Positions 31,388 through 58,107 of a DNA stretch of 64,000 nt are shown here, piece by piece. A program made the translations under genes and the position numbers. The stretch is taken from the NCBI RefSeq assembly GCF_004345675.1, contig NZ_SLWU01000013.1, forward strand, positions 1 to 64,000, read 5' to 3'. The notes under the pieces were generated by a model. That model did no database searches, was not told the DNA's origin, and saw nothing but the letters and a program-made list of their open reading frames with translations. The stretch is from Caldanaerobacter subterraneus (GTDB lineage Bacteria; Bacillota; Thermoanaerobacteria; Thermoanaerobacterales; Thermoanaerobacteraceae). The stretch's first letter is position 1. The number at the start of each line of letters is the position of its first letter.

Positions 31388-32740
31388 GTGGAGCTTACAG
31401 CATCTCACATAGCTTACTTTATTGCAATTTTAGTTATACTTATACTTCTTTTAATGAGAAAAGATATAATCCTGCCTGTTATCATAGCAATTTTTGTAAT
31501 TGGGCTTTTAGCCACAAAGGACGTGATAAAAGCAATACAAATAATTTACACTGCCATATTGGTTTCAGGAATACGCCTGTGGCACATAATAGTGATAATT
31601 TCCCTCATAATAGCTATGTCAAAAGCTCTGGACGACATAGGAGCAGACGTAATATTGACAAAACCTTTTATAAGGCATCTAAAAAGCCCCACGTATTCTT
31701 TCTGGATAATAGGTCTGTTTATGATGCTACTTTCTTTTTTCATGTGGCCTGCCCCTGCTGTAGGCCTTATAGGTACAGTATTGATAATTCCTTCATTAAA
31801 ATCAGGCATTGACAAAGTTTCTTTAGCTTCCATAGTGTCCGTTTTTGGATTTGGCATAGCGCTTTCAGGAGATTTCTTTATACAGGGTGCTCCTTCAATA
31901 ACAGCAAAAGCAGCGGGAATAAATACGCATCAGCTGGTTCAGAATATTCTGCCAATTTGGGCAGTATCTTCTGTCGTAGCTAGTGTATCTTTATATTTTT
32001 GTGTTCTTTATACATCAAAACACCATCCACCTTCAGAATACGTAGAGACAAAACCGATCCACGGGAGACCAGTTTCATTTAAAAGTTATACAGTATCAGT
32101 AATAGCAGTAGTGCTCTTTTTGATAGACGTTCTCATAATGATACTTTTTAAAATCCATTCCAGCGGAGCCACTGCCTTAATAGGTGGAACAGCCATAATT
32201 GTTTTAATAGCTTCTGCAGCAATTCAAGAAAATTTTCTGGATAAAACAAGAGATTACTTAAGAGAAGGTTTTTTAAACGGCATGAGGACCTTTGCCCCCG
32301 TTATAATAATAAGTGCATTCTTTCTGTTGGGAGAAAACAGTATGGCAAAGCAAGTAATAGGTCCTCATGCAAGAGGATATCTTGTAGACCTTGGAACTTA
32401 CCTATCTCATCATATACCTCTTAATAAATACACTGCTTCCCTTTTGGAACTGGCAATGGGAATTCTCACGGGAATGTCTGGCTCGGGATTTTCAGGCCTT
32501 CCTTTAATAGGCGCTTTAGCAAAGACTTTTTCCTCAGCAGCTTCCCTCAACCCAGCTTTATTAGCTTCTATAGGACAGTTAGCTGCAGTCTGGACAGGAG
32601 GGGGTACATTAATACCCTGAAGCACAGCCGTAGTGTCAGCTGTAATAGGTGTTGACTCCAGAAAAATATCTAAGAGAAATTTTATACCTGCAGCATTGGG
32701 GCTTATCTCAGCTTACATTGTAACAGTCATACTTTTATAA
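31388..32740 (+). pseudogene. Multi-pass permease interrupted by an in-frame TGA
   Basis: GTG start at 31388 with GGGAG upstream. The frame codes for about 12 hydrophobic helices and stops at TGA 32618-32620 after ...GGGTLIP. The same frame then continues without another stop for 39 residues (S-TAVVSAVIGVDSRKISKRN, then a final helix) to TAA at 32738-32740. The tail completes the last helix, so the full protein is about 450 residues. TGA probably replaces a Trp codon (TGG). It looks like a GntP/CitMHS-type anion permease but I cannot place the family. Could be a nonsense mutation, sequencing error or recoding. Confidence 0.7.
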
Positions 32741-34919: not shown

Positions 34920-36146
34920 TCACAAAATCTCTGGCTTTTCACCTCTTTTACCAATAAGCCACAAAAACACAAAGGAAATAAAAACAGAAATTGAAGCTGC
35001 TAGAAAGAGTTTATTCACACCGATATAATCCATAATTGCGCCAAACGTAGAAGGAGTAACTATAGCCGCCAGTGAAGAAAAAAAGTAATAAAGTCCCGTG
35101 TAAGTTCCTATTTTTTCAGAAGAAGTATAACTTACGACAAGCGGATAAGAATTTATTGTAAAAAGAGCATTGAAAATTCCCGCAAAAGGCATTAAGATTT
35201 GAATAATCCTGAAATCCTTAACCACCATGAAAATCAAAAATAGTATCGCTTGCCCAAATGCGCCTATCATCATGGTTTTTCTCTTACCTATCTTCGAAGC
35301 AATAAATCCCGCTGGCAGTGCGAAAATCAAAAAAGCCAAAGCGTAAAACCCCATCGTAAAAGATGATACACTTTCATCAATTCCCAAAGCTATCTTACAG
35401 TACCTTGTAAAGAAAGTCTCAACTGCAGCAAAACCTGCTATCATCATAAAAATTGACAAAAGCGTGTAAAAGGGAGCTCTGTCCTCGTCCCTTACAACAG
35501 TTATAAGGGCTTTTATTATACTTTGCTTTTCTTTTCTTTCTTCAATAACAAAAGACTTAGGTTCCTTTATTGTCAAAAATAAAATTACAGGCACAATTAT
35601 TGAAAGAATTCCTGAAAGAAAAAAGGGATAGGCTTTATTTAATTTATAAAGCTGGGAACCTATAAAAAATATTATTAAAGCCCCCAATCCTCCCATGAAA
35701 TTTATTACCCCATTGGCCTTACTTCTGTGCTGCTCCTCAACAATATCTGGCATCAAGGCCACCAGCGGAGTCCTATAACTTGCAACGACAATATTAAACA
35801 TGAGGTCAACGATAAGAAGAGCCCATAGCTTTGTCTGTAAGGGAAGCATTGCATACAAAATGCCAGCAACTGGCATACCAATTAGTATATAGGGCATTCG
35901 CCTGCCTATGGAAGTCCTCGTATTGTCACTTAAAGCTCCGAAAACAGGAAGTATAAAGAGATTAGCTATATTATCCCAGCTCATCACAAAACCGATCAAT
36001 GTATTGCTTTTAGTAAAATTCCCGAGAAAAATGGGCATATAAGCATTATAAGCAGCCCATATCATAGAGACCACCATAAAACCAAGTCCTAAATTGAATA
36101 TCTTAAAATAGTTTAGCGGTAGTTGATTGTTTTCATCAAAAACCAT
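34920..36146 (-). CDS. MFS transporter (SLC45/sugar-like)
   Basis: Twelve-helix major facilitator, 408 residues. The loop motif after helix 2 reads [22 protein letters not shown], a variant of D-x-x-x-R-x-G-R-R as in the GPH/SLC45-like sugar carriers. It follows the glycerophosphodiesterase gene by one base, so a role in importing a glycerophosphodiester or its sugar/alcohol product is plausible but inferred. Start has GGGGGATA upstream. Confidence 0.82.
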
Positions 36147-56496: not shown

Positions 56497-57393
56497 TTAC
56501 TTGTCAATGGCATAGCCCAATTTCCTGAGAAGCTTCTCATTGTCCCTCCAGCCTTTCCTCACTTTAACCCACAGCTGCAAAAATACCTGCTTTCCATAAA
56601 ATTCTTCCAAGTCCTGCCTTGCCGCCTGCCCTATCTTCTTTAACATCTGCCCATTCTTTCCTATGATTATTCCTTTGTGGGACTCTTTCTCACAGTAAAT
56701 ATAAGCGTCAATGTCTACTATCTCTTTGTCCTCCCTCTCTTTTATGGATTCCACTTCTACATAGACTCCATGAGGAACTTCCTCCTCCAGAAAATAAAGC
56801 ATTTTTTCTCTTATTATCTCCGCAACTATCAACTTCTCGGGCTGGTCAGTTATATAGTCATCAAGATAGTACCTAGGTCCTTCTGGCAAGAAAGAAACTA
56901 TCTTCTCTTTCAAAACCTCAACATTAGTGCCCAAAGAAGCAGAAATGGCCACCACATCCTTAAAATTGTACTCGCTTTTAAAAACCTTAATAGCCTCTTC
57001 TACTCTCTCAGCAGGCACCAAGTCAATTTTATTGACCACCAAAATAACTGGAGTATCCACCTCTTTTAGATTATCCAAAATATACCTATCTCCAGGGCCT
57101 ATCGAAGTATCGGGCTCCACCATGTACAAAATTAAATCTACATCTTTTAGAGTCCTTTTTGCTACTTCAATCATGAATTCACTCAGTTTAGATTTAGGTT
57201 TATGAATTCCAGGAGTGTCCACAAAAATAATCTGGTAATCTTCTGTAGTCAATATACCCCTTATGGTATTGCGGGTGGTCTGGGGCTTTGGAGAAGTAAT
57301 AGCAACTTTTTCTTTCAATATGGCGTTTAAAAGGGTTGATTTTCCTACATTTGTCCTTCCAATCAACGCTACAAAGCCAGCTCTGTAGGCCAT
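56497..57393 (-). CDS. era: GTPase Era
   Basis: Ribosome-assembly GTPase acting on the 16S rRNA 3' end. G1 GRTNVGKST, G3 DTPG, G4 NKID, G5 SAS motifs all visible; C-terminal KH domain from about 205 with GIIIGKNGQMLKKIG. 298 residues. GAAGGTGA ribosome site. Between dgk/PAP2 and deoC. Confidence 0.96.
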   Translation of the reverse strand: MAYRAGFVALIGRTNVGKSTLLNAILKEKVAITSPKPQTTRNTIRGILTTEDYQIIFVDTPGIHKPKSKLSEFMIEVAKRTLKDVDLILYMVEPDTSIGPGDRYILDNLKEVDTPVILVVNKIDLVPAERVEEAIKVFKSEYNFKDVVAISASLGTNVEVLKEKIVSFLPEGPRYYLDDYITDQPEKLIVAEIIREKMLYFLEEEVPHGVYVEVESIKEREDKEIVDIDAYIYCEKESHKGIIIGKNGQMLKKIGQAARQDLEEFYGKQVFLQLWVKVRKGWRDNEKLLRKLGYAIDK

Positions 57394-57408: not shown

Positions 57409-58107
57409 TCACCTTATAATCTGAAAAATTAACACTGTAAACAAAATCCCTAAAATTGCCCCGACAAAAACCTGAGAAAAAGTGTGAATCTTGCCCTCCA
57501 CTCTGCTCTCTGCTACCATAAGAGCTAATAAAAAACTCAAAGTAGAAATAAAGGCATCTGCTGTCATGAAAGTGATAGCAGTAGCCACTGAAAAGGCAAT
57601 TGCACTGTGAGCGCTGGGCATTCCGCCTCTCATCGGAGTCCCTTTTTTAAAGTATACCTTTAAAATCAAAGTCAAAAAAACTACCACTAAAATACTTATT
57701 ACTGTAACGTGAATTGGTGACTCCCTGATTTTTACAAGTACCATCTTCGTCCAGGGGTTTACCCTGTCAAAAAATATCAAATAGGCAACGAGCACAGAAT
57801 TCACTGCAGCTATCAATACTGCCCCAGCAGCTACATTCTTGGCAATCTTCGCCATTGGGTTGTAATTCTTCACTAACATATCAATGGTAGTTTCAATGGC
57901 AGTGTTTATCATCTCCGCAATCAATACCAGAGAAATTGTAAACAATATTATTACAAATTCTACTCTAGTAAGGTCCAAAAAAAGGCAAAAAAACAGCACA
58001 GCTATTGCTATTGCAAAGTGAATTTTCATGTTCCTCTGCGTTTTAAAAACGTGTAGAATCCCCTCTATGGCATAGTTAAAACTATCTATTAAATTTCTTG
58101 ACTTCAC
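57409..58107 (-). CDS. Diacylglycerol/undecaprenol kinase fused to PAP2 phosphatase
   Basis: Two membrane domains in one 232-residue protein. Residues 1-120 are the DagK family (Firmicute members phosphorylate undecaprenol): EMINTAIETTIDML is the catalytic motif. Residues 125-232 are a PAP2-like domain with MPSAHSAIAFSVAT and a later VAESRVEGKIHTFSQVFVGA, matching the family's His and Arg-containing motifs. Joining a kinase and a phosphatase suggests local control of the lipid-carrier phosphate pool. Located ybeY-dgk-era as in relatives where dgk is often separate. Confidence 0.88.
   Translation of the reverse strand: MKSRNLIDSFNYAIEGILHVFKTQRNMKIHFAIAIAVLFFCLFLDLTRVEFVIILFTISLVLIAEMINTAIETTIDMLVKNYNPMAKIAKNVAAGAVLIAAVNSVLVAYLIFFDRVNPWTKMVLVKIRESPIHVTVISILVVVFLTLILKVYFKKGTPMRGGMPSAHSAIAFSVATAITFMTADAFISTLSFLLALMVAESRVEGKIHTFSQVFVGAILGILFTVLIFQIIR

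Follow-up and report, generated by a model that had tools for sequence, protein, structure and literature searches.

Bacterial genes inactivated by a nonsense mutation are characterized by a single-base stop in an otherwise open reading frame, and the same gene shows differing lesions in relatives. The carriers ArsB, INDY/DASS (such as VcINDY), TRAP-M (such as SiaQM), MleN and YdaH/MtrF, which belong to the ion-transporter (IT) superfamily, are those that the permease described here matches in structure. Bacterial selenoproteins, for example the SelD encoded by the same genome, also associate an in-frame TGA with the presence of the selenocysteine (Sec) machinery. In PMC1088965, the main criterion for their identification is that the TGA pairs with Cys in homologues, and the SECIS element is a hairpin just downstream of the TGA that has a G in its small apical loop.

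The window, i.e. the whole stretch of 64,000 nucleotides that was analysed, carries a truncated permease ORF (31388..32620, + strand), which a structural model and its matches predict to encode a membrane protein of the ion-transporter type. This ORF has a GTG start and 410 codons and ends with a TGA (32618..32620, + strand). As the first-pass annotation had claimed, the frame continues beyond this TGA for 39 codons, up to the TAA at 32738-32740 (orphaned tail 32621..32740, + strand), and the protein obtained by reading the TGA through has 450 residues. By itself, an open run of this length is weak evidence, because in 11 of the 59 ORFs of the window (non-overlapping, mechanically defined, at least 100 aa), the permease counted, the next in-frame stop is 39 or more codons away. 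One such case, the ORF pair 57409-58107 / 56497-57393, was checked with Pfam, and there the extension turned out to be the following gene. The tail is assigned to the permease gene because it is homologous to the C-termini of orthologues, not because of the length of the open run.

Homologues came from two sources: 41 genomes that were searched, of which 23 matched (own genome included), and genome contigs that were scanned and gave 24 loci. In an alignment of the 450-residue joined protein with these sequences, the residue at the stop is Trp, encoded by TGG, in each of the 44 other rows extending to the site, and all of them run through it into the same C-terminal tail. As L038, L039 and L056 are identical to L003, L007 and L008, these rows represent 41 distinct sequences; L024, L025, L026, L027, L029, L058 and L060, all of them 5' fragments ending before codon 411, were omitted from the count. 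The partial frame of one homologue row, L059, contains stops at codons 1 and 75. Among the rows reaching the site, no homologue ends at LIP, and none has Cys or Sec at the position of the TGA. W411 is one of the 33 invariant columns of alignment A1 (30/30 others), which contains 31 rows chosen out of 45 and in which the W of the window was supplied by reading the TGA as Trp; two residues of the tail, N431 and G438, are also invariant in these 31 rows. The proposal that a TGG had changed to TGA is therefore supported by every other row, and the in-frame stop cuts off a region that is conserved in homologues, as in nonsense pseudogenes.

The tail shares 51-59% identity with eight rows of the genus, versus 65-79% for the body of the protein; for the pair formed by the window and L003, the values are 59% and 72%. 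About 17% of the 39-residue segments of this pair are as low as the tail, and about 16% are as low in the intact pair L003/L016. The decay of the tail was considered as a clock and rejected, as the identity of the tail is below that of the body but within the spread of the 39-residue segments, and no age was derived from it. The first-pass statement that the tail has no further damage held, since the tail contains no other stop and does not diverge to an unusual degree. Such absence of clear decay beyond the stop is consistent with a recent mutation, and would be equally so with an error or readthrough. As judged from the alignments, the tail is a genuine homologous C-terminus.

The permease itself matches no Pfam and no NCBIfam family at E<=1, and the permease alignment retrieved no PDB sequence at E<=10. 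Among 31 relatives, Pfam DcuC was found in two (best E 2.2e-06) and DctM in one (0.0036), and NCBIfam DcuC and DASS in one each (5.1e-06 and 1.8e-04, respectively); most of the weak family matches of these relatives look like chance, e.g. Mpo1-like in 10/31 (best E 0.0054). The contig scan found members of the permease family in Thermoanaerobacter relatives, Oscillibacter, Pelosinus and others. An AlphaFold model built from the read-through protein (mean pLDDT 85.5, pTM 0.82) matches ArsB (10tp_A) with a Z of 25.4, 399 aligned residues and an rmsd of 4.7. Structural matches over model residues 2-450 include NaS1 (Z 24.2), an integrative model of MleN (23.4) and SiaQM (20.9), and Foldseek gave E values of 5.3e-07 to 9a59_A (integrative model of MleN-MetQ) and 1.0e-05 to VcINDY (6okz_A). 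As modelled, the read-through permease has the ion-transporter fold (ArsB, INDY, TRAP-M) over its full length. Its likeness to the carriers of the IT superfamily lies in this whole-length match, but it differs from them in having no Pfam, NCBIfam or PDB sequence match, its identity to the structural neighbours being only about 7-17%. In the predicted model, the stop takes away helix 410-420 except its first residue and the whole of helix 424-449. The corresponding broken helix of VcINDY is located at a substrate and sodium site, and a loss of function is therefore likely.

The permease has a match in all of the ten genomes compared within the genus, own included, and is intact in five of the nine relatives (G001, G003, G004, G006 and G009). 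It is broken by lesions other than the TGA in at least three of these nine. In G008, a one-contig genome, an IS110-type transposase gene (PF01548, PF02371) lies between codons 230 and 231. In G005, codons 22-300 (279 codons) have been deleted in frame. In G002, the two sides of the locus are on different contigs, and the gene is divided near codon 28 between the ends of these; the non-permease ends show an inverted-repeat match of 17/22 bases with a 7-base direct repeat alongside. The G002 permease was thus apparently broken by an insertion element, which was not itself seen and whose presence is deduced from the contig ends. The own genome is Thermoanaerobacter-like: within its genus, G002 carries the sequence of Thermoanaerobacter sp. 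A7A and G009 that of T. wiegelii Rt8.B1. A fourth candidate lesion, the frameshift of the G007 permease, was withdrawn because its neighbours, the flavoprotein and UppP genes, are also frameshifted in the same 9 kb stretch (L067); it is probably an assembly error, and this stretch suggests an error-rich assembly. The break found in G017 (sister genus, about 100 contigs) resembles a frameshift and was left out of the lesion count.

On these data, a G-to-A nonsense mutation of an ordinary kind very probably inactivated the permease, which the genus would be able to dispense with. Since the orthologue is also broken in relatives, plain loss of function is the simplest account of the TGA. Taken as a whole, the fate of the gene can be viewed as follows. 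The gene would encode a membrane transporter of 450 residues that adopts the ion-transporter fold. A single G-to-A change would have converted the TGG of Trp411 into TGA, and translation would stop at residue 410, giving a product without helix 424-449 and with only the first residue of helix 410-420. This 410-residue product is presumably non-working. The mutation would be recent enough for no second stop or frameshift to have accumulated. From the comparison of genomes, we infer that the permease is dispensable and has been lost repeatedly in the genus. The locus shows no notable difference from described bacterial nonsense pseudogenes, and its TGA could be polymorphic within the species. 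Against this account, the G007 frameshift cannot be firmly counted, and lesions are also found in neighbouring genes (G006, G005 and G009). The permease nevertheless has the most lesions among the genes compared in the genus, as a plain count of small numbers.

The main rival explains the TGA by an error of sequencing or assembly in an intact permease gene; it is improbable but deserves consideration, as the codon is one base away from that of every homologue row and the frame has no other stop. In PMC1088965, clusters in which only one sequence has a TGA are kept as mere candidates because of a possible sequencing error. However, the matches of the seven neighbours tested on this contig show neither a stop nor a gap. 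Moreover, when the 23-40 kb stretch was compared with five relatives and judged by eye, no gene besides the permease was clearly broken: further stops in the matches fell within ORFs that are short or antisense, within a start extension of SspI or right at the end of a gene. Lesions of the permease also occur in relatives.

Alternatively, a near-cognate tRNA might decode the UGA as Trp or some other residue, efficiently enough to yield a useful amount of full-length permease. This is unlikely: the tail without other stop and without clear acceleration is what readthrough would leave, but a recent mutation would look identical, and TGA, which is absent from all the other rows at this site, terminates 20 of the 59 ORFs of the window, the permease included. 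Genome-wide recoding of TGA to Trp was ruled out, on account of these terminations and of the neighbouring orthologues, which keep their frames. Still less likely is a conditional form of readthrough, in which the UGA would be decoded by a near-cognate Trp-tRNA or by the Sec machinery and the amount of full-length transporter would thereby be regulated.

Recoding of the permease UGA as selenocysteine can be considered in the light of the own genome, which carries selD as well as selA, selB and selC (tRNA-Sec), the three genes that the first-pass annotation had suggested looking for. On its contig C14 (L001:255-1244), selD precedes selA and selB, with tRNA-Sec located just beyond them on the opposite strand. 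The selD gene has its own in-frame TGA (L001:255, context SAG-stop-AAKIGP), and an 8-bp hairpin lies downstream of it in both the predicted fold and the centroid. An annotation of selD beginning after this TGA would miss the N-terminus. For T. tengcongensis, the listing given in PMC1794560 includes SelD, GrdA and GrdB as selenoproteins; with the Sec machinery present, Sec insertion is therefore expected in such organisms. The weak 5-bp stem that had been noticed 3' of the permease TGA (32624..32643, + strand) is present as described, its arms being ACAGC (32624-32628) and GCTGT (32639-32643), and shows no evidence of function. All five pairs are possible in none of the 41 TGG relatives, and four of the five can form in 28 of the 41; as these relatives have no TGA, the stem predates the stop, and it looks mostly like a by-product of conserved coding letters. 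Folding energy was dropped as a SECIS test, as the z-score of the permease stem (-0.83) and that of the selD region of the same genome (-0.78) show that the measure does not discriminate. Unlike the bacterial selenoproteins, the permease has a site that pairs with Trp and not with Cys, and no conserved downstream element is shown. Selenocysteine in the permease was ruled out on the basis of the Trp found at the site in every other row, and with the transporter fold of the protein and the incomplete stem of the relatives, this reading has almost no likelihood left. Of the three options left by the first-pass annotation (recent change, sequencing error or recoding), the first two agree with the TGG of the other rows and the intact tail, and recoding does not, because the site is Trp and never Cys.

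The inactivating nonsense mutation thus remains the preferred explanation, and the TGA looks like a case of routine gene loss and not like a special reading of the genetic code. For annotation, the permease is best labelled a probable pseudogene; the presence of the Sec machinery does not make it a selenoprotein candidate. The case matters little beyond annotation; it offers an example of the repeated loss of an uncharacterised permease with the ion-transporter fold in one genus of thermophiles, and this may point to a substrate that is required in certain niches only.

The permease adjoins a flavodiiron-type gene in all eight relatives that were fetched and sspI in seven of them, G006 being the exception. 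In G006, sspI and uppP were not found beside the permease and this end of the locus is rearranged; the flavodiiron-type gene is reduced to its last third (L072:10941-11324, residues 272-392) and the permease is intact. An MFS gene is split into ORFs of 204 and 191 aa in T. wiegelii (G009, L039:7817-9021), is absent from the syntenic region in G005 (L069) and is intact in the window (34920-36146).
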